The notes below the pieces were generated by a model. That model saw only the letters and a program-made list of their open reading frames with translations. It was not told the origin of the DNA and ran no database searches. The position numbers were made by a program, and so were the translations under genes. Shown here one piece after another: positions 1-18,819 of a stretch of 64,000 nucleotides of DNA. Where the stretch lies: assembly GCF_002723915.1 (NCBI RefSeq), contig NZ_BEWL01000001.1, positions 1-64,000 of the forward strand, in the 5' to 3' direction. The DNA is from Gluconobacter albidus. Its GTDB lineage: Bacteria; Pseudomonadota; Alphaproteobacteria; Acetobacterales; Acetobacteraceae. The number at the start of each line of letters is the position of its first letter. Position 1 is the stretch's first letter.

Positions 1-69
1 CGTCAGCAAACTGGCTACAGTGCTACAGAAACAGCCGTTTATTATGCTGACGCATTATCTTTGCGCTGA
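1..69 (+). CDS. 3' end of a gene cut by the window start, possibly a tyrosine recombinase
   Basis: The first frame is open from base 1 to a TGA at 67-69 and reads as 22 residues ending TGYSATETAVYYADALSLR. The G-x-S...T...YY spacing resembles the region around the catalytic tyrosine at the C-terminus of phage-type tyrosine recombinases (compare the common GHSS..TT..Y pattern). An integrase here would fit the AT-rich island that follows. The second frame is also open, to a TGA at 107-109, and cannot be excluded. Too little is visible for a firm call. Confidence 0.3.
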   Translation, partial: RQQTGYSATETAVYYADALSLR

Positions 70-140
70 TGATGTATCTGCTGAACATAAAGAAAAATGG
101 ATCATATGATCCCTTTCTTTGTTTGTTGGTTATTGCTTTG

Positions 141-167
141 GGATAGATTGTTCGTCTATCCTTTCTT
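141..167. terminator. hairpin between convergent genes
   Basis: GGATAGA (141-147) and TCTATCC (155-161) form a 7-bp stem with a 7-nt loop, followed on the + strand by CTTTCTT. It lies immediately after the helicase stop on the - strand and downstream of the truncated + gene, so it can serve both. A separate 14-bp perfect palindrome (GGATCATATGATCC, 99-112) lies just upstream. Confidence 0.45.
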
Positions 168-169
168 GG

Positions 170-1624
170 TCACTGATTCCAGTAATATGTTTTATTTCTA
201 AGTCTGTCCGTGTGTTTTGTTATTAAATCATTATGTTCGTCTGCATAGTTGGATAATTCACGAAAGAACTTTGTTGATGATATTGGCTTGGATGACTGAT
301 GAAATGTCTTAATGAATTCAGCATATAATAGATACATCGCCTTCCCGTCTTTTGGTGATATGGATTTTGGCTTATCATCCATATCCATAAACCAGTGTTG
401 TAACGGTGATATGTATTTGTTTTCGTTTATGTTATCCATCGTCAAACCTAACAAGTTAGGGTGGCGCTTGAATACACATTCTTCTTTAGGATTAACGTTA
501 CACCACAACTTGAACCAGTCGATTTCATTAAATTTTGGGTTCATCCAAGGTGATTCATATCCCCCTACGTCACCATAATTGATAATTGGAAAACGTCTTG
601 CGCCTGTGTCATCTTTAATCAAATCCGCAAGTGATTCATTCGTACAACCAATGAAGGTAACATTGTTTGGAACGTTCAATGACGCATTCGTTCCCATTGG
701 TCTATATTGAATGTCTTTTCTTGATATCGCATTTTTAATAATGTTGTTTTCAGTTTTGTTTGAACCAATCATTTCATCACAGAACAACACATAGTTGTTT
801 GTTGATAATGCAACATTTCTATCATCACCAACTTGCGTAAAGTTTGCTTCGGTGAAAAGGCCAGTAATTGGTTTCAACAGGTAGTCATTTACGAAGCGTG
901 ATTTACCGCAGTTTTGTTTTCCTGTGAAAATTGGCATCATGTGATTATCAACATTGAAGCCCGTCATCTTACGTTTGGCCTGCCATATGAAATGGTATAA
1001 AACAGCAGCCACATAATCAGGGTTGTCGTTCGATATAATACGCGCCGCGTCCAGAAACGCCGTGTAATCTTTAAATCCGCCCTTCGACATCATCAATGGC
1101 TGGATAACTTCTAAACGCTTTTCTTGGGTCGTATCGTTCATATGTGAAATTATATTTCTTTGGATATAATCATATGGACGCCATTCTTTAGGATAATCGT
1201 TTTCAATGATTTCATTCTGAATGTTGGTTGCGATATCCGATACGAACATAATTTTCGCATTATTACTTGCGCGAAGAATTAATTCCATTTCCACATCATC
1301 GTTGTCTGATATGTCATGTGGCTTATTTTTTAAGCCACCCTGAATGTCGATATCAATCCCGTTTAATGAAAAATATGTTTTTATAAATTCAGGAAGCGTT
1401 TTCGCTTCTATCGCCTTTGTTTTGTTTTTGATCAACTGCTTCTTTGCGTTTTTAATATCAATGGCAGATATTTCTTTATACTTCGAAACTGCATCTGTTA
1501 TTTCTTTTATGTTGTCAGGATATTGGCGATACAACATCAAAACCATATCACTGGCCAACATTTTAACATTTTCAACTTCTTTGTATAACTTATATATTTC
1601 ATTAAAATCTATTTTTGTATTCAT
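170..1624 (-). CDS. VapE/D5-like SF3-type helicase or primase-helicase
   Basis: A 484-residue protein that is probably the replication ATPase of the AT-rich island. The C-terminal half has a Walker A motif GKQNCGKS (about 235-242), a Walker B-like VLFCDEM (279-285), a sensor-like IGCTNE (325-330) and an arginine-finger-like TGARRFPI (340-347). This order is typical of the virulence-associated protein E / DUF5906 helicases of phages, satellites and plasmids. The N-terminal 200 residues show no primase metal motif I can identify, so it may be helicase only. The start at 1624 has an AGGA ribosome site about 7 bases upstream. The gene is strongly AT-rich, unlike the chromosome after 4.1 kb, which suggests transfer. 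The 340-bp region upstream separates it from a divergent gene and carries elaborate inverted repeats. Confidence 0.8.
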   Translation of the reverse strand: MNTKIDFNEIYKLYKEVENVKMLASDMVLMLYRQYPDNIKEITDAVSKYKEISAIDIKNAKKQLIKNKTKAIEAKTLPEFIKTYFSLNGIDIDIQGGLKNKPHDISDNDDVEMELILRASNNAKIMFVSDIATNIQNEIIENDYPKEWRPYDYIQRNIISHMNDTTQEKRLEVIQPLMMSKGGFKDYTAFLDAARIISNDNPDYVAAVLYHFIWQAKRKMTGFNVDNHMMPIFTGKQNCGKSRFVNDYLLKPITGLFTEANFTQVGDDRNVALSTNNYVLFCDEMIGSNKTENNIIKNAISRKDIQYRPMGTNASLNVPNNVTFIGCTNESLADLIKDDTGARRFPIINYGDVGGYESPWMNPKFNEIDWFKLWCNVNPKEECVFKRHPNLLGLTMDNINENKYISPLQHWFMDMDDKPKSISPKDGKAMYLLYAEFIKTFHQSSKPISSTKFFRELSNYADEHNDLITKHTDRLRNKTYYWNQ

Positions 1625-1964
1625 TCTTTAATCCTATTTCTGAAATCAGGTCATAAAAAAAACCCATTGTGAATGGACCCGATCAAAGGATTCACAATGG
1701 GTTTTCAAATTTAAAAATAGAAAAAAGATATAGATTATAAGTATAAAACGGATAATCAAATCACCATTGTTGAAACGGTAATTTGATCGGGTCCGTTTCG
1801 TACAAATGTATTTATAACATTAACGTAGTTATAAACTATATTGTTAATAAAAACAAGATATTTTTAATTCGTTTTTAATATGCATCGCTAGTTTTTTAAC
1901 ACCACAGTTAATCGGATTTCTTCCCTGATAAATAGTTTTATCAAATTTATTTTGGGAAAAGAAA
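1625..1964. promoter_or_regulatory. divergent intergenic region with two interacting hairpins; candidate origin or structured leader
   Basis: This 340-bp region separates the helicase gene (-) from the nuclease-fold gene (+), so it must hold both promoters. Hairpin A is a perfect 16-bp inverted repeat (1659-1674 with 1690-1705) around a 15-nt loop. Hairpin B spans 1746-1798, with 7-, 7- and 3-bp paired blocks separated by small bulges and an 11-nt loop. The 13 bases GGACCCGATCAAA in loop A (1675-1687) are exactly complementary to TTTGATCGGGTCC in the 3' arm of hairpin B (1782-1794). AAACGG also recurs at 1746-1751 and 1773-1778. The rest is A/T-rich. The location beside a replication helicase suggests an origin or copy-control element, but that is inference. 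Confidence 0.6.
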
Positions 1965-2543
1965 ATGAAGACACAAAATTTCAATCAAGACCACACACTA
2001 GGCAAAGATGCCGAATGGGCTGCCATTATACATATGGGCGAATATCATCTTAACGCTTTAGAATACATCACCATCCATGACACCAAGAAACAACAGAAGA
2101 CAGGTGATGTAACCTTTACCTTCAAGAATGGTGATGTTCGCACATATGATATGAAATTCGGACGCAAGAAGTACAAAAGCTTCTATGCAGAAATCTGGTC
2201 CAATTACGGATACAAACCGGGATGGCTTGTCACCGAAAACGTGGATTATATCGTTCAGACGTTTGGTGACAATGATTTCTATATAACCATTGATTTTGAC
2301 AAATTACGTTCCAGTCTAAACCTTCGATATAATGCATCCCATGCTGATATAAGATATGCAGAAGTAAATTGTAATTACCCCATGTCCAACCAGAATAACG
2401 TAAGTTATACAGGTATGACGTTAAACACCGGCCAGACCATCAATATCCCTTGGTCAGCCATGAAGCCGTTCATAACCAGTGTTCAGGAACTGGTTGATGG
2501 AAAGCTTGTCCAGAAGTCATTCACCGACTTCCTATTGGCCTAA
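1965..2543 (+). CDS. probable PD-(D/E)XK nuclease-fold protein of the mobile island
   Basis: A 192-residue protein with no confident named homologue. The pattern fits a PD-(D/E)XK core: E17 in GKDAEW, D48 in TGDVTF, then D62-M-K64 in YDMKFGRK, followed by a helix with E76 and a strand around GWLVTENVDYIV (86-97). The closing GWL...DYIV segment is common in small phage and mobile-element endonuclease-like proteins that handle their own DNA. No signal peptide or membrane segment is visible. The start has GGGAAA just upstream. It is divergent from the helicase gene across the structured region and is followed by a good terminator, so it is probably monocistronic. Substrate and role are unknown; a resolvase-like or restriction-like nuclease is possible. 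Confidence 0.55.
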   Translation: MKTQNFNQDHTLGKDAEWAAIIHMGEYHLNALEYITIHDTKKQQKTGDVTFTFKNGDVRTYDMKFGRKKYKSFYAEIWSNYGYKPGWLVTENVDYIVQTFGDNDFYITIDFDKLRSSLNLRYNASHADIRYAEVNCNYPMSNQNNVSYTGMTLNTGQTINIPWSAMKPFITSVQELVDGKLVQKSFTDFLLA

Positions 2544-2562
2544 CCGCCATAACGACCAACGC

Positions 2563-2597
2563 AGAAGGCCGGGGCTTATCACCCTGGCCTTCTTTTC
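2563..2597 (+). terminator. rho-independent terminator after the nuclease-fold gene
   Basis: AGAAGGCCGGGG (2563-2574) pairs with CCCTGGCCTTCT (2582-2593) with one mismatch, and TTTTC follows. It lies 20 bases after the stop codon. Confidence 0.75.
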
Positions 2598-2923
2598 TTC
2601 ATCTACCCCCCTGCCCTGCCCTTCAGACGCGATGACAGCCCGCAGGATCAGCAGACAGCCCAATTCCCTACATTGGATCACTTCATATGCGCCGTAAGCC
2701 GATATCTGGCCCGTACAGGCATATATTATTGGGGAAAGCACAAACCATAGTCAAAAATAATATAAGCATGATGAAGCAATTACGGGCTTTGTATTGACCT
2801 AAATAAAACATTTTTATTTCAAGAAACGATCTGATATCTTAACGTCAATGGAAACGAATGTCCGTTTCTTTCAACCGATATGGATTCAAAACATGGATAC
2901 ATAAAATTATGATTGGATAATGT
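2598..2923. other. intergenic region: GC-rich patch followed by AT-rich promoter region
   Basis: From about 2600 to 2720 the composition turns abruptly GC-richer (runs such as CCCCCCTGCCCTGCCC) inside the AT-rich island, then returns to AT-rich. No convincing gene is seen in the patch; a reverse-strand frame across it (2532-2741) has no family resemblance and overlaps the terminator. Upstream of the next gene, TTGACC (2794-2799) could be a -35 element. An A/T-only inverted repeat, AAATAAAA-cat-TTTTATTT (2801-2819), could be an operator. Confidence 0.4.
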
Positions 2924-3829
2924 ATGACCTATAAATCATTAAACAAACAAATTAACGTCATACCTGCCGTTGTATCAACGGCGGTACATATAACGCCACC
3001 ACATATAACAAAAATCATCAATGAATCATCATATGCAACTTTTGATTCATTAATTAATGGTATTGTTTACGGTGGATATCATGATGATAATATAAACGAT
3101 ATTGCATTATATTATGCGATGAAAACATATGGCGATTCCATACCAAAACCAACGCAAACACAAATTGATTCTTATAAAAACAAACGTGTGGTTGAATTTG
3201 CGACAAATACATTTAAATTCAAAAACACGCCATTCATATGCGATGATGAACAACAATATAAAACCCGTTGCATTCTTATGTTTTGGAATTATAAATTTTC
3301 GTCAATGTATCCAAACGATGTGTTTTTGAACATGGTCGATTATCAAACAAACCAATTTGTTCGATCAAAATCGAAAACCGTTTTCGGACAAAATCGAACA
3401 ATATGTGATGTATTACGGGTGTTTTTTGATAATCATGTTCCCGGAATGGATGGTGATTATCTTACCCATATGAAACATGTTCCACAAATCATGGATACAT
3501 TTTCCACCAATCCTGACCAATTCTGGCGGATACGGGCTGCAATGTATGGATCGAATAAAATCCGTGACGTGTTGGTTCATGACAAACATTGTGATGTTCG
3601 TAAAGCCGTTGCACGATATGGGAATGATTCACATCGTCAAAAATTATCCAGTGATCGTGCAAAATCGGTCCAGTGTGTGGTGTATCAAACAACCACGGAT
3701 GAACAATTACGCGATTTGATATTCCAAAATCAAAAAATAACCAGATCAAACCAAACGTTTATTCAAACCGTGATCCAATATGGAACCAACGACAAACATA
3801 TCGCCAAATGCAAATTGTTTGAAAAATGA
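2924..3829 (+). CDS. unknown island protein with C-terminal HEAT/LRV-like helical repeats
   Basis: A 301-residue protein that I do not recognise as a named family. The last third contains about four 22-24-residue units with the same spacing of hydrophobic residues: 201-223 (IRAAMYGS...VLVHD), 224-247 (VRKAVARYGN...LSSD), 248-270 (VQCVVYQT...LIFQ) and 279-300 (IQTVIQYGTN...). The VRxAVAxxG signature recalls leucine-rich-repeat-variant or HEAT-like alpha-solenoids found in some large phages. The N-terminal 200 residues have no visible catalytic motif, signal peptide or membrane segment. Composition is AT-rich like its neighbours. It converges on a small reverse-strand frame across a shared palindrome. 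A protein-interaction role is a guess. Confidence 0.6.
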   Translation: MTYKSLNKQINVIPAVVSTAVHITPPHITKIINESSYATFDSLINGIVYGGYHDDNINDIALYYAMKTYGDSIPKPTQTQIDSYKNKRVVEFATNTFKFKNTPFICDDEQQYKTRCILMFWNYKFSSMYPNDVFLNMVDYQTNQFVRSKSKTVFGQNRTICDVLRVFFDNHVPGMDGDYLTHMKHVPQIMDTFSTNPDQFWRIRAAMYGSNKIRDVLVHDKHCDVRKAVARYGNDSHRQKLSSDRAKSVQCVVYQTTTDEQLRDLIFQNQKITRSNQTFIQTVIQYGTNDKHIAKCKLFEK

Positions 3830-3831
3830 CC

Positions 3832-3861
3832 AATATGACCGGGATTAATCCCGGTCATATT
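3832..3861. terminator. 30-bp perfect palindrome, probable bidirectional terminator
   Basis: AATATGACCGGGATT (3832-3846) is followed directly by its exact reverse complement (3847-3861). It begins three bases after the stop of the + gene and contains the stop codon of the reverse-strand frame at 3845, so it suits shared termination. There is no strong T-run; TCATTCAT follows. Confidence 0.6.
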
Positions 3862-3961
3862 CATTCATATCATGTTCCTGACCAGCGTTCTTGATACGTC
3901 CCACCCTACCGACGACACAACGTGTTTGTGAACGCTTTACGTAACCGTATTTTTCAAACAT
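3845..3961 (-). CDS. small or 5'-truncated reverse-strand gene
   Basis: From an ATG at 3959-3961 this reads as 38 residues beginning MFEKYGYVKRSQTRCVVG and ending EYDRD. The same frame is open further upstream to 4054 (a TGA at 4055-4057), giving about 69 residues in total; a TTG at 4016-4018 is an alternative start. The upstream part also looks protein-like (NAFFDVFGQQKKYACFMFEK). This suggests either a small basic protein or the 3' remnant of a longer gene cut where the AT-rich island meets the chromosome. It converges on the solenoid-repeat gene, and the shared palindrome lies exactly at its stop. No family is recognised. Confidence 0.4.
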   Translation of the reverse strand: MFEKYGYVKRSQTRCVVGRVGRIKNAGQEHDMNEYDRD

Positions 3962-4148
3962 AAAACAGGCATACTTTTTTTGCTGCCCAAAAACATCAAA
4001 AAAAGCATTTATTTTCAATGGCTTGATAGGGATTCCTGTTGACGCAATTTTCCGTCACAAAAAGTGAGTTCAGATTTCCGGGGAAACGCCTATTTCTGTT
4101 CCAGACCGGCGTTAACGACAAGACTGTCACGAAAGTTTCCATAAATTG
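3962..4148. other. junction between AT-rich island and GC-rich chromosome
   Basis: Composition shifts from poly-A/T (for example around 3974-4015) to balanced and then GC-rich between about 4040 and 4150. The first chromosomal gene starts at 4149. I looked for a tRNA 3' end or an obvious direct repeat marking an attachment site and found none in this window; the matching end would lie to the left of base 1. Confidence 0.4.
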
Positions 4149-5516
4149 ATGTCAGACGACTCATCGTCTTCCCAGGCAGCGAGACCCGGCGGTATCCAGC
4201 GTGTCATGAGCAATCTGGGCGTTCTTCTGGGGGGGCGCGCCGTGAACGCTCCGTTGAGCCTTCTTCACATCTGGCTTGCGACCCATCTGCTGGGCAGCTA
4301 CGGCTTTGGGCTCGTTGCGATGATGTATGCCTTCGCGCGGACGATGGGTGATATCGTTGACTTCCAGTCCTGGCAGACCGTTCTGCATTACGGTCTGAAA
4401 CCCCTGACGCAGGGGGACCGTAGCAGTTTCCAGAAAATCGTCTCCTTCAGCCTTCTTCTGGACACTTCGGGAGGGCTTCTGGGCTTTGGTGGCGGCGTTC
4501 TCATCAGTCTTCTGGCCATGAAATTTCTGGGATGGCCACCCCAGATCCATATCATCGGCGTCGTCTACTGCGTTTCCATTCTCTTTATGGCGTCCGCGAC
4601 CGCGACCGGTCTGCTGCGGGTGTTCGACCGCTACGATCTGCTGGCCGTTCAGGGAACCGTCGCCACCATCGTCCGGGTCATCGGAACGGCCTCGATGGCT
4701 CTGGGCTGGGCTTCGGTGACAGTACTCGCCAGCGTCTGGATTGCCGCCGAAGCCGCCGCCTGGGGCACGATCTTCTTCATGGCAGCCCGGGAAATGTATC
4801 GCCGCGACCTGATCCGCGGACTTTTTCAGGAAATGCGCGGCATTATCCCCGAACTCCTGAGCGGACAGTTTTTTCGCACCTATCCCGGGATCTGGCGTTT
4901 TGCGCTGAACACGAACCTCAACTCCACGCTTGCCCTTGCCTTCGGACATATCGGCACGCTCGTGGTCGGCGCATTCGTTGGTCCGACCAGCGCGGGTTAT
5001 TACCGGATTGCAAGCCAGATCGCCGCGGGAATCGCAAAACCCGCCACGCTGATCCAGACGACCGTTTATCCGGAAATGGCCCGGCTATGGCGTGATCGGG
5101 CCATGAACCGCCTGTATCGCATGACGGGACAGATCGCCCTGATGGCCGGGGGAATCGGGACGGGCCTGCTCCTGCTGACACTGTTCGCAGGACGCCCGCT
5201 GCTTCAGCTTTACATCGGACACACCGGAGCAACGGAAGCCCTTCCCGTCACGCTGTGGCTGCTCGCCGCCGAAGTCGTGACTGTCTGGGGCCTGCCACTG
5301 GAACCGCTTCTGTTTACGACAAATCGTTCTGGCGCCGCGATCGGCGCACGCATTCTCGAATGCCTGTTCTTTCTCCCGGCACTCGTCATGATGGTCCGCC
5401 AGTACGGGCTGAGTGGGGTGGGGCCGGCGACGTTCTGCGGCGTGACATTACTGATCACGATTCAGCTGGTCCTCGTGATCCGCGCGGCCCGCAGCCCCGA
5501 TGGGCTTGCAGCATGA
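4149..5516 (+). CDS. oligosaccharide or lipid flippase of the Wzx/MOP type
   Basis: A polytopic membrane protein of 455 residues with about 12 to 14 hydrophobic helices, in the MOP superfamily of lipid-linked saccharide flippases (Wzx, MATE, MurJ-like). Typical features are the N-terminal LGVLLGGRAVNAPLSLLHIW segment and the central NTNLNSTLALAFGHIGTLVV segment, where a family-like second half begins. I start at the ATG at 4149; a TTG three bases earlier is possible. Its stop overlaps the next start (ATGA), so the two are translationally coupled. As the first gene of a lipid and glycan locus it probably flips a lipid-linked saccharide or a lipid across the inner membrane; the substrate cannot be read from the sequence. 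Confidence 0.75.
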   Translation: MSDDSSSSQAARPGGIQRVMSNLGVLLGGRAVNAPLSLLHIWLATHLLGSYGFGLVAMMYAFARTMGDIVDFQSWQTVLHYGLKPLTQGDRSSFQKIVSFSLLLDTSGGLLGFGGGVLISLLAMKFLGWPPQIHIIGVVYCVSILFMASATATGLLRVFDRYDLLAVQGTVATIVRVIGTASMALGWASVTVLASVWIAAEAAAWGTIFFMAAREMYRRDLIRGLFQEMRGIIPELLSGQFFRTYPGIWRFALNTNLNSTLALAFGHIGTLVVGAFVGPTSAGYYRIASQIAAGIAKPATLIQTTVYPEMARLWRDRAMNRLYRMTGQIALMAGGIGTGLLLLTLFAGRPLLQLYIGHTGATEALPVTLWLLAAEVVTVWGLPLEPLLFTTNRSGAAIGARILECLFFLPALVMMVRQYGLSGVGPATFCGVTLLITIQLVLVIRAARSPDGLAA

Positions 5517-6643
5517 AGGTGGCCTTCCCCCTCATCGGCCAGCGCCACCAGACCCTGCACGCCCTGCCCGTTGCTCTGGAGATTTCTGCGCGCCATCCAG
5601 ACGTGGCGGTCCATGTGTCCTGCCTGACCGTCAGCCATCTCGAACTGGCCAGCTCCCTCGCAACCCTCTATCCTGAGGCGCGCGTCCAGTTCGATCTGCT
5701 GCCCATCTCCCAGAAACTCCGCCGTCGCATCGAAAAGCATGGCCTGCGGGTGGTGGACCGGCTGATCGGACTGTTCGCATCCCGGCATTATTTCCGGGGG
5801 TTTGACGCCATCATCGTGCCGGAAGCGACGTCCCTGCAACTTCGCCGCATGGGAGTACGACGTCCGAAGATGATCTGGACGGGACATGGGGCCGGAGATC
5901 GGGCCATCGGATTTGCCAGCCATCTTGGCAGGTTCGATTTCCTTCTGGTTCCCGGACGCAAGGTGGAACAGCGCATGCTGGAAAAAGGGATCATCCGTCC
6001 CGGCGCCTATCACCGTGGCACCTATGCCAAATTTGATCTCGTGAGGCGCATGGATGCAAAGCGGCCGAAGCTTTTTAATAACAACCGGCCCACAGTCCTG
6101 TATAATCCGCATTTCGTACGCCGTCTGTCTTCCTGGCCCGGAATGGGACATCAGATTCTGAAGTTCTTTGCCGGACAGGACCGCTATAACCTTGTTTTCG
6201 CGCCTCATTTCCGTCTTTTCGACAACCGTCGCGAGGAAGGCGAGGCATTGCAGCGTCAGTATGGGCATCTCCCGCACATGCTGATCGACCCCGGAAGCCA
6301 CCGGAGCATCGACATGACCTATACGATGGGGGCAGACCTCTATCTGGGGGATGTCAGCAGTCAGGTGGCCGAATTCATGATCCGCCCACGTCCTTGTCTG
6401 TTTCTCAATGCCCACCACGTAAAATGGCACGGAGATCCGGATTATCAGTTCTGGACGCTGGGGCCGGTGACAGAAAATGTGTTGGATCTGGGCGACAGGA
6501 TCAAGAATGCCTTCGAAACGCATCCTCGTTTTCTTGAGGCGCAGCGCCAATATGTATTAGAGACATTCGAAACACTGGGTGATGAACCCACTGCTCCCGC
6601 TGCGGCGGACGCAATCGTCGATTTTCTGAAAAGGGCTGCCTGA
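5513..6643 (+). CDS. CDP-glycerol glycerophosphotransferase-like (GT-B fold) protein
   Basis: A 376-residue cytosolic protein starting at the ATG that overlaps the flippase stop. The C-terminal half has the pattern of the CDP-glycerol:polyglycerophosphate transferase / GT-B family: YNPHF (substrate loop), FAPHFRLFD, LIDPGS and DMTYTMGADLYLGDVSSQVAEF, the last being the classic acidic-serine segment that contacts the nucleotide-activated donor. The N-terminal half (KVAFPLIGQRHQTLHALPVA; MIWTGHGAGDR) fits a Rossmann acceptor domain. It would transfer a glycerophosphate-like or sugar unit to a lipid or glycan acceptor. It is fused translationally to the flippase upstream and the acyl-AMP ligase downstream, so a role in lipid head-group assembly is likely but inferred. 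Confidence 0.55.
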   Translation: MKVAFPLIGQRHQTLHALPVALEISARHPDVAVHVSCLTVSHLELASSLATLYPEARVQFDLLPISQKLRRRIEKHGLRVVDRLIGLFASRHYFRGFDAIIVPEATSLQLRRMGVRRPKMIWTGHGAGDRAIGFASHLGRFDFLLVPGRKVEQRMLEKGIIRPGAYHRGTYAKFDLVRRMDAKRPKLFNNNRPTVLYNPHFVRRLSSWPGMGHQILKFFAGQDRYNLVFAPHFRLFDNRREEGEALQRQYGHLPHMLIDPGSHRSIDMTYTMGADLYLGDVSSQVAEFMIRPRPCLFLNAHHVKWHGDPDYQFWTLGPVTENVLDLGDRIKNAFETHPRFLEAQRQYVLETFETLGDEPTAPAAADAIVDFLKRAA

Positions 6644-16841: not shown

Positions 16842-17908
16842 AAATCGCCTACATCATCAATTCGCTCGAATGTGGCGGCGCACAGCTTCCCATTCCGGAT
16901 ATCGTATCCGTGCTGAAAGCACGCGGCGGAGAGGTGACCGTCTTCGCGCTGGCCCGCAAGGACGGCCTCGCCATTCCGTTGCTCGAAGCCGCAGGCATTC
17001 CCGTCCGCGTCCGTGAAGGCACGACGCGCGACCATATCGTGGCATATCGCTGGCTGCGCGACGAGATGGAGGCGTTTCAGCCTGACCTGATCTGGACGTC
17101 GCTGAGCCGCGCCACGCTTCTGGGACAACTCGTCGCCCTGCGCCGCAAGACCCCGACGGTCCACTGGCAGCATTGCGGACGCCTCAAGAAGGCGAATGCG
17201 TTTCTTCTCCGGCTGTGCCGTCCCTACACCACGCTCTGGGTCGCAGACTCCCAGTCTGTCATCACCTTCGCTGCAAAAGAGCTCGGCCTCAACGATAATT
17301 TCGTGGCTTGGCCCATTTTCCGCGCTGATCCGGATGCGCCCATCGCAACACCATGGAGAGAGGGCGAAATCGTACGCGTCGGCTCACTGGGAAGACTGAA
17401 TCCGGTCAAGGCCTATGACATCCTCTGCGAGGCTGTGGCCCTGCTGAAGGATCACCCCGACCTGCCACCGTTTCGTCTTCAGATTGCAGGCGACGGCCCT
17501 CTGCACGCCGCGCTACAGGCCCGCATCACGGCTGGCAATCTGCCGATTGATCTTCCGGGCTATACGTCAAAGCCCATGGATTTCCTGAAAACCCTGCACC
17601 TCTACGTCCAGTCGTCGCACTGGGAAGGGATGTGTGTCGCAGGGCATGAAGCCATGACCTGCGGACTGCCGGTTGTCGCAACTCCTGCCGGGGAGCTGCC
17701 ATCAAGCATTCTCGACAGAGAGACGGGACGCATCGTGCCATTCGACAATGCCCCGGCCCTCGCAGCCGCTCTGGCGGACCTGATCGGCAGACCCGCCGAT
17801 CTGGCAGCAATGGGCGAACGCTCCCGCAAACGGGTTCTGGAACGCTTCGGGCCGGAAGCCTTCACCCGCAATGGGAACGCCGTACTGGATCGCATTCCGG
17901 GCTTCTGA
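16838..17908 (+). CDS. GT4 family glycosyltransferase
   Basis: A 356-residue GT-B glycosyltransferase of family 4. It starts MKIAYIINSLECGGAQ, with the glycine-rich N-terminal loop; the middle has VGSLGRLNPVKAYDILCEA, the standard donor-domain start; and the C-terminal half has SSHWEGMCVAGHEAMTCGLPVV-type segments carrying the conserved acidic pair for the nucleotide-sugar donor. No membrane helix is visible, so it works at the cytosolic face. It is last in the six-gene coupled operon, suggesting glycosylation of the locus lipid product before export. The sugar is unknown. A hairpin overlaps its stop codon. Confidence 0.82.
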   Translation: MKIAYIINSLECGGAQLPIPDIVSVLKARGGEVTVFALARKDGLAIPLLEAAGIPVRVREGTTRDHIVAYRWLRDEMEAFQPDLIWTSLSRATLLGQLVALRRKTPTVHWQHCGRLKKANAFLLRLCRPYTTLWVADSQSVITFAAKELGLNDNFVAWPIFRADPDAPIATPWREGEIVRVGSLGRLNPVKAYDILCEAVALLKDHPDLPPFRLQIAGDGPLHAALQARITAGNLPIDLPGYTSKPMDFLKTLHLYVQSSHWEGMCVAGHEAMTCGLPVVATPAGELPSSILDRETGRIVPFDNAPALAAALADLIGRPADLAAMGERSRKRVLERFGPEAFTRNGNAVLDRIPGF

Positions 17909-17921
17909 ACACCCGGAATGC
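17892..17921 (+). terminator. hairpin at the end of the lipid operon
   Basis: GCATTCCGGG (17892-17901) and CCCGGAATGC (17912-17921) form a perfect 10-bp stem spanning the stop codon of the glycosyltransferase gene. There is no clear T-run, so intrinsic termination is likely but not certain. Confidence 0.5.
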
Positions 17922-17928
17922 GTGTTCG

Positions 17929-18819
17929 TCAGGCGCCGAAAATCCGGCGCTTCATGTTCAGAAGGTCCCGTTTCGGGCCAAGTCCGATTTTCTTGACGTC
18001 GATCAGCGTCACCTGCCCGGCTGCAGAGAGCGTGTGCATGCCGTCCGGAAAGCGTCGGCGCAGGGTGGCTGGAATGGAAACCGTAAGCCCGGGCGTGACT
18101 TTCGGCAGTTCACGCTCCAGCCCCTCAATTTCCAGCAGCCGAATGCCCCGCCCATAGGTGCCCTGACAGTCCTGCGTCGGCAGGATGATCTTTCCATCCA
18201 TCACGACCGGCGTCCCCGCCGGACGTGCTCCCGCACGGTCGTTCAGGAAAAGTCCGAGGTTTTTCCATGGCCCCGTCAGCGTATCGGCCACGGAAATGTT
18301 CAGCAGACTCTGACGTTCGACCTTGCTGCCCGCAGGAGTCCAGAACATCCACCAGCGACCGGCATAATGAAGAGGGGTTGCGTCGATTGCCGCTTCGGGG
18401 AAATCGAACGCTTCGACCCGCTCCCATTCCCGCGGGAACGACTTCGCACGGTAGAGCGAGAGACGCCCTGAAGCGCTTGCTTCGGGCAACATAAAAACCT
18501 CGCCCTCATGCTCGAACACGAATGGGTAAGACAGGTGCCAGGGCTCTTCCAGAACGCTCTCGCGCGACAGCATCCGCCCCGTACCGTCATAGATCAGAAC
18601 GTCGATCGTGCCTTTCGGATGCCGATAATCGAAGGCTTCGGCAAAGACATGCAGCTTTCCATCCCGCCACAGGCCGAAAGGGTCCGCCAGAAAACGATGG
18701 TCTCCGATGTCAGGCAGTGTCGTGATGGGAAAACCGTTCAGGCTGGCCGCTTCGACAAGCTCCGCCAGAGGCGCATGAACGATGGCGCATCGCCAGTGAT
18801 CCGTCCGCAGAAACGGCAT
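17929..18819 (-). CDS. glucosamine inositolphosphorylceramide transferase 1 N-terminal-like protein
   Basis: A 296-residue cytosolic protein that resembles the N-terminal domain of plant GINT1, seen in bacteria as a stand-alone protein. The visible motifs are RFLADPFG (42-49), HVFAEAFDYRHPKGTIDV (57-74), HLSYPFVFE (95-103), a LPEA motif (111-114) and a five-bladed beta-propeller-like pattern with WWMFWTP. I start at the ATG at 18819; an earlier in-frame ATG at 18924 would overlap the divergent gene. It converges on the lipid operon. In plants the family works on glycosyl inositol phosphorylceramides, so its presence beside serine palmitoyltransferase supports a sphingolipid head-group role. 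No separate C-terminal transferase domain is present; the reaction is unknown. Confidence 0.7.
   Translation of the reverse strand: MPFLRTDHWRCAIVHAPLAELVEAASLNGFPITTLPDIGDHRFLADPFGLWRDGKLHVFAEAFDYRHPKGTIDVLIYDGTGRMLSRESVLEEPWHLSYPFVFEHEGEVFMLPEASASGRLSLYRAKSFPREWERVEAFDFPEAAIDATPLHYAGRWWMFWTPAGSKVERQSLLNISVADTLTGPWKNLGLFLNDRAGARPAGTPVVMDGKIILPTQDCQGTYGRGIRLLEIEGLERELPKVTPGLTVSIPATLRRRFPDGMHTLSAAGQVTLIDVKKIGLGPKRDLLNMKRRIFGA

Follow-up and report, generated by a model that had tools for sequence, protein, structure and literature searches.

What are two hairpins doing between a helicase gene and a divergent gene when the loop of one carries the exact complement of a segment of the other? The question is raised by the start of the window, the whole stretch of 64,000 nucleotides from Gluconobacter albidus that was analysed. 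A sequence-only reading of the region had described a perfect 16-bp stem with a 15-nt loop, and a 13-nt complementarity between that loop and a second hairpin. The stem of hairpin 1 (1659-1674 with 1690-1705) is indeed complementary at 16 of 16 positions and the 13-nt match (1675-1687 with 1782-1794) is exact, and folding puts the second hairpin, hairpin 2, at about 1745-1799 rather than 1746-1798. The relevant strand had been left unnamed; the T8 run that follows hairpin 1 marks it as the minus strand, that of the helicase mRNA. We propose, with a probability of about 0.7, that the element is the 5′ leader of the mRNA for the island's VapE helicase and that it is a transcription attenuator with mutually exclusive folds (Table 1).

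Table 1. Features of the helicase leader and of the island that carries it, in window coordinates.
Feature	Position	Strand	Basis
Possible promoter, TTGTTT-17-TATAAC	1828-1856	-	By eye, aligned with the G215 promoter-like TTGAAC-17-TATTAT
Hairpin 2 (putative anti-antiterminator), 23 pairs	1745-1799	-	Folding; covariation
seqA, 13 nt, GGACCCGATCAAA, in the 5′ arm of hairpin 2	1782-1794	-	Complementary to seqB
Early hairpin, GAAACGG/CCGTTTC	1772-1799 (1793-1799 with 1772-1778)	-	Predicted for the first ~46-58 nt
Conserved apical hairpin of hairpin 2, CCGTT-TCARC-AAYGG	1764-1778	-	Conservation in alignment
CCATTGT, 5′ arm of the terminator; could pair instead with ACAATGG	1694-1700	-	Folding, sequence
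Hairpin 1, putative terminator, perfect 16-bp stem, 15-nt loop	1659-1705	-	Three stem pairs with two-sided changes in G215
seqB, 13-nt complement of seqA in the terminator loop	1675-1687	-	12 nt in L030, 11 nt in G215
T8 run of the putative intrinsic terminator	1655-1662	-	First four T's also stem-paired; T7 in L030, T8 in G215
Shine-Dalgarno-like TAGGA ahead of the ATG at 1624	1632-1636	-	By eye
Integrase 3′ end, probable	1-69	+	22 codons, then stop; frame open from contig end
VapE-type helicase gene, 484 aa, the gene proposed to be controlled	170-1624	-	PF05272 66.3 bits; PF19263/DUF5906 45.2 bits; PHROG DNA helicase
192-aa island gene, divergent	1965-2543	+	84% identical copy in G407 = L030
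301-aa island gene	2924-3829	+	phrog_20647, unknown function
Right attachment repeat, 19 bp, ACGCAATTTTCCGTCACAA	4042-4060		Second copy on contig C17

The element lies between the helicase gene and the gene for the 192-aa protein. Read along the minus strand, it comprises a possible promoter, hairpin 2, an AT-rich linker, hairpin 1 running into T8, the Shine-Dalgarno-like TAGGA and the ATG of the helicase gene. Because T8 follows on the minus strand, ahead of the ribosome site, hairpin 1 has the shape of an intrinsic terminator facing the helicase gene. A standard terminator scan did not report it, since that scan allows loops of 3-8 nt only; terminator loops of 14-16 nt are unusual. Two pairings connect the hairpins. 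In addition to seqA with seqB, the 3′ half of the apical hairpin of hairpin 2, ACAATGG (1764-1770), is complementary to CCATTGT in the 5′ arm of the terminator. The one pairing is nested in the other, and jointly they form an antiterminator helix; the 7-nt pairing would disrupt the terminator 5′ arm too. The early hairpin predicted for short transcripts (-7.8 kcal/mol, and -5.9 for its G215 equivalent) would display most of seqA in a 13-14-nt loop, and its stem letters are invariant and so neither support nor oppose it.

Two relatives carry the same arrangement. L030, a locus of a Gluconobacter metagenome-assembled genome (G407 is the same record, with identical 6691 bases), encodes a 96% identical helicase and keeps the arrangement with a 12-nt seqA/seqB match. 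G215 belongs to another genus of the same family, and its VapE protein is 46% identical over residues 191-471 and 37% identical overall; its helicase gene is preceded by a hairpin 2 and by a terminator stem of 14 bp that runs into T8, with a seqA/seqB match of 11 nt (ACGATCCACCA with TGGTGGATCGT), all in largely other letters. The T-run and the place ahead of the ribosome site, on the helicase strand, are found in all three copies, as is a terminator hairpin with U-run between promoter (predicted) and ribosome site. The G215 promoter-like TTGAAC-17-TATTAT was listed by a promoter scan; the scan of the window did not list the proposed TTGTTT-17-TATAAC, which counts against the attenuator.

The letters that differ between the copies differ in step. 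In an alignment made by MAFFT with no fitting to a structure, GAAACG and CCGTTTCARCAAYGG are fixed around a replaced middle. Of the 67 cells of hairpin 2, 95.5% are paired and five pairs have changed on both sides, compared with 0-1 two-sided changes and 28-55% pairing in six slid versions and a mean of 1.7 two-sided changes in shuffles. At alignment columns 9, 10 and 18 a change in seqA is matched by both its hairpin-2 partner and its seqB partner (one U-G); at column 16 seqB followed the seqA change and the G215 hairpin 2 lost the pair, and at column 19 the G215 hairpin-2 pair is lost and the seqB pair kept. By hand count, two-sided changes number three in the terminator stem and one, T-A to C-G, in the inner antiterminator helix. 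Hairpin 2 also carries G-U changes (GU to GC, UG), by which RNA pairing is kept and DNA pairing is not. With three sequences, two of them close, this covariation is effectively one comparison, between two independent copies. The sequence-only reading had named a lack of compensatory changes in homologous loci as what would tell against it; such changes were looked for and are present in G215. What the sequences and their comparison give is the set of elements and the order in which they stand, the T-run, and two alternative pairings that are conserved together.

To compare the exclusive folds we set the ensemble with the seqA/seqB pairs forced against that with hairpin 2 and the rest folded apart, in growing transcripts, a comparison that is equilibrium arithmetic and not kinetics. 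Before seqB emerges, the hairpin-2 state is ahead by 16 kcal/mol in the window and L030 and by 3.7 kcal/mol in G215. With the loop made but the 3′ arm still to come, the antiterminator minus hairpin-2 difference is -3.1 kcal/mol in the window, -0.4 in L030 (a tie, the antiterminator being level with hairpin 2) and -10.0 in G215; once the terminator is complete it is +11.0, +12.9 and +6.5 kcal/mol, respectively. As computed, the antiterminator is favoured only while the terminator 3′ arm has not yet been made. Alternative pairings that exclude the terminator, seqA/seqB and ACAATGG/CCATTGT and their counterparts, are therefore available by both sequence and computed energy. Hairpin 2 (-28 kcal/mol in the window) forms well ahead of seqB and, being both early and stable, is expected to make OFF the default unless its formation is prevented; the switch may thus rarely reach ON unaided. 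That the hairpins form a switch, as had been suggested, is borne out by the exclusive pairings, the compensatory changes in the distant copy and the energies that cross over along the transcript. Against the attenuator stand the number of copies (three, two of them close), the level antiterminator of L030 and the unpaired columns 16 and 19 of the G215 hairpin 2.

From this arrangement we infer transcription of the leader, termination within it and a trigger that chooses between the folds. In the nascent RNA hairpin 2 would form first and bury seqA, and hairpin 1 with its U-run would then end transcription ahead of the helicase ribosome site, the OFF state. Were hairpin 2 absent or opened, seqA and ACAATGG could pair with the seqB loop and the CCATTGT arm, and the resulting antiterminator helix would let the polymerase through, the ON state. 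The trigger that we prefer is autoregulation in trans: the terminated leader (~165 nt) would show seqB in its loop and bind seqA of newly made transcripts, so that the antiterminator would be blocked and the helicase of a resident island would stay off, as with P4 CI. The early hairpin, with seqA in its loop, would be a natural landing place for such a seqB.

The complementarity had been judged unlikely by chance, and the shuffles agree, as figures that are descriptive and not corrected probabilities because the feature was already in view when the region was picked: 2 of 2000 dinucleotide shuffles of 1625-1964 produced a stem of 12 bp or more in which 8 or more loop bases have a complement elsewhere (the real values are 16 and 13), and looser settings gave 12 of 2000 (10 and 8) and 99 of 2000 (9 and 7). 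The longest exact inverted repeat is 16, the maximum in 1000 shuffles being 14, and the minus-strand leader folds with z = -7.0 (none of 200 shuffles as stable); the G215 leader has z = -5.1. We also screened for stems of 10 bp or more in which 9 or more loop bases have a complement upstream. In 51 further loci, which overlap in part and add up to 374,469 bases, this detector reported a single additional case, L042, which has no T-run. Elsewhere in the window it found one match, at 17,891-17,964, also without a T-run; there, in GC-rich DNA, an 11-bp stem carries a 10-nt loop that is complementary throughout to a stretch immediately upstream. With looser values (stem 9, 7 complementary) weak matches appeared in L031, the G215 locus, away from the leader, and in L036, L077 and L079, none of them before a VapE gene with values like those of the three copies. 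A reversed-sequence control of the detector is uninformative, as such complementarity survives reversal.

How widely is the arrangement distributed? A covariance model of hairpin 2 found only the window's own genome (G000) and G215 among 347 family genomes, and a letter pattern found the same two among 397 family genomes, with one match in the backward control. The leader DNA matched, in those 397 genomes, itself and a single 26-nt stretch in G013 (E 8.6e-4), and in plasmids and phages it gave only AT-rich chance-like matches. The window VapE had a match at E ≤ 1e-3 in 25 of the 397 family genomes, its own included; profile A1 at E ≤ 1e-15 found only G000 among 385 class genomes, and the 14 genomes of the genus of G215 yielded G215 and one weak match. 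Searches of viral contigs returned no match for the window VapE and no confirmed relative for the G215 VapE, profile A1 or the 192-aa and 301-aa proteins; letter patterns gave either no match there or, for the pattern that found G000 and G215, 17 stretches (three of them repeats of others), none with the arrangement at the pattern.

At the individual loci, the arrangement is absent before the genes of a VapE relative in G381 (36% identity; L032, 841 nt upstream seen) and of one on a Pigmentibacter plasmid (L036), and it was not found at five other VapE/primase phage or plasmid loci, all of which counts against the attenuator. At three of these five (L101, L102 and L104) the annotated CDS before the helicase gene overlaps its start and so leaves no room for a leader. 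Several of the 24 weak loci (L058-L081) are short or have an unconfirmed gene start, and for these absence is only likely. The expectation that the arrangement would recur upstream of VapE-like genes in other Acetobacteraceae was thus borne out at one distant locus, G215, and not at the other, weaker VapE/primase loci examined.

The leader belongs to a small integrated element. The window start coincides with the end of contig C1 of its genome, and bases 1-4043 are AT-rich: GC content is 32-42% over the first four 1-kb steps and 53-65% after them. This part holds the minus-strand VapE-type helicase gene and two plus-strand genes to which no function is assigned. The 5′ part of an integrase gene is found on contig C17 of the same genome (L099:2-829, minus); it scores 27.3 bits against Phage_integrase (cut-off 27.1), is 25-27% identical to the integrases of L030 and G215 and is probably one gene with window 1-69, across an unsequenced gap. 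Host DNA starts at window 4041-4044 in 17 of the 24 other matching genus genomes, and an uninterrupted relative, G398, matches C17 up to one point and the window from the same point, with the 19-bp repeat shared. The order of the island is integrase, helicase, leader and two genes, over 963 + 4043 bases and an unsequenced gap, and this integrase-VapE island is at least 5 kb in size. In G215 the integrase and helicase genes likewise face each other. No capsid or packaging gene is seen in the sequenced island parts, so the word satellite denotes a likeness only.

Several observations bear on the island and its relatives. In the empty-site relative L094 the island site adjoins an alanine-racemase-like gene (named by eye). 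A tRNA-His gene (L030:1282-1357) adjoins the integrase of the L030 island and a tRNA-Lys gene (L031:2094-2168) that of the G215 island; there is no tRNA at the sequenced right end of the window island. The 192-aa protein has no match in Pfam or NCBIfam. The 301-aa protein has a remote relative named 'HEAT repeat protein' (8 places, Vibrio phage vB_VmeM-32) and a weak, probably chance match to a PADLOC SIR2 model (E 0.0012). Upstream of its gene, window 2851-2868 is the palindrome GAAACGAATGTCCGTTTC, made of the hairpin-2 half-sites GAAACG...CGTTTC; it also occurs in L030 with its middle changed and is possibly a shared protein site. Near the G215 island, a 274-aa gene (L031:6744-7568) matches a PADLOC TIR effector model (E 4.8e-6) and, weakly, nucleoside deoxyribosyltransferase, and may be defence cargo. 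Iteron-like repeats, TTATCTCCCTA/TAGGGAGATAA, lie in both orientations at L031:5604-5948, upstream of the G215 leader, and are candidates for the origin of the G215 island.

What might set the switch is best weighed against known systems. According to passages of PMC4825925 and PMC10111431, the CI RNA of P4, likewise an integrase-primase satellite, pairs with seqA and seqC and stops transcription before the replication genes. A similar action here, in which the terminated leader or a piece of it is a repressor RNA whose seqB pairs with seqA of new leaders and forces termination, is a serious possibility though well short of an even chance; it would give immunity to a second copy of the same island and is compatible with the attenuator. 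Consistent with this, the specificity segment differs between the window and G215 while the flanking GAAACG and CCGTTTCARCAAYGG are conserved, cognate seqA/loop duplexes reach -22.2 and -18.6 kcal/mol as against -6.6 to -7.1 for non-cognate ones, and the early hairpin would expose seqA in its 13-14-nt loop. Within the island part, exact copies of the 8-mers ACCCGATC/GATCGGGT are confined to seqA/seqB; their other places in the window (13994, 19711 and 50025) are outside the island. The likeness to P4 CI extends to the element type, with a satellite-type integrase and a primase/helicase and termination upstream of a replication gene, to a leader segment (seqA) that pairs with a complementary segment made in the same leader, and to the display of seqA in a hairpin with a U-run terminator close behind. 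However, seqB is in a separate processed RNA in P4 and is the terminator's own loop in the present leader, which has no seqC-like second target by eye, no Rfam match and other pairing letters, and in which trans action would be by analogy; cis compensation alone could also keep the pairing. Rfam recognised P4 as a positive control (C4, RF01695, 74.9 bits; isrK, RF01394, 60.8 bits). With the E-value limit set at 10 it matched neither C4 nor isrK in window 1600-1900 and L031 5300-5600, a further point against a repressor RNA, and with the limit at 1 it matched no family in window 1-4500. The looser limit gave the two leaders 15 and 12 matches, all below gathering scores; those with the lowest E-values, mir-218 (0.00026) and mir-5 (0.0018) on the G215 leader, were taken as generic long-hairpin matches. 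The leader may therefore work like P4 immunity, yet by the available test it is not a member of C4 or isrK. The IsrK RNA of Gifsy-1 (RF01394), in the part of PMC4825925 that describes it, is also a prophage leader with terminated and read-through isoforms, the short acting on the long, but it activates translation, whereas read-through control is proposed here. A bolder and doubtful extension is a new family of RNA-only immunity and copy control, in which the terminator loop would be the specificity element, every stopped transcript would therefore be the repressor RNA for the next, and the window and G215 island types would be mutually unrecognised. It would follow P4 CI logic, with terminator and antisense merged in one hairpin and no detectable relation to C4 or isrK. 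Among the open-access PMC literature found, judged by title, none describes the arrangement.

The same alternative pairings would serve a cis switch set by a protein, a ligand, translation or polymerase speed, in which a factor such as a helper-phage protein opens or stabilises hairpin 2 with no RNA in trans. A protein might bind the apical hairpin CCGTTTCARCAAYGG, which is strongly conserved, and the DNA at 2851-2868, ahead of the 301-aa gene, repeats GAAACG...CGTTTC, as does L030; we consider this reading tentative, as no conserved leader peptide is seen by eye and it does not explain why islands differ in the pairing segment but not around it. Replication-gene attenuators of plasmids offer another model, in which an RNA of the opposite strand binds the leader and promotes termination (pT181, in the sections of PMC3753616 drawn on here). 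With pT181 and pIP501 the element shares a replication-protein leader that chooses between terminator and antiterminator and a short RNA segment that sets specificity, but their regulator is a countertranscript, whereas in the window the complement is in the same strand. A plus-strand countertranscript is improbable here: one weak plus-strand promoter-like match lies at 1691-1718, but both promoter matches in the scan of G215 5200-6200 are on the minus strand, the linker that would hold the promoter is far shorter in G215 and hairpin 1 is followed by poor T-runs on the plus strand. By these consensus scans, which are weak evidence, the window and G215 have no opposite-strand promoter in common. 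The sequence-only reading had also considered a replication origin, and a divergent AT-rich intergenic region near a helicase gene would suit an origin or a copy-control DNA structure whose hairpins extrude as a cruciform or bind an initiator. We rejected this very unlikely reading on the polarity of the T-run, its position ahead of the ribosome site on the helicase strand in three copies and the RNA-type (G-U) changes; there is no iteron-type repeat array in 1625-1965, and the iteron-like repeats of G215, upstream of its predicted promoter, are the better origin candidate. Lastly, intrinsic terminators are common and an inverted duplication yields complementary segments, so an ordinary terminator against read-through could stand beside an unrelated hairpin. 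That the complementarity is such a relic is hardly credible, because in a relic the two segments would not have been rewritten together in G215; among the 374,469 other bases screened by the detector no comparable case has a T-run, and the length of the terminator loop is unusual.

Read as an attenuator, the leader of this very small mobile island would be a regulatory RNA absent from the catalogues, occurring in acetic acid bacteria and their family, whose logic is simple enough that one reporter could test it. As a plain cis attenuator it would show what keeps the single-gene helicase operon of such an island silent. If action in trans is true, the leader would be a compact terminator-plus-antisense part with natural orthogonal variants, and RNA-based satellite immunity would extend beyond the P4/C4 families.
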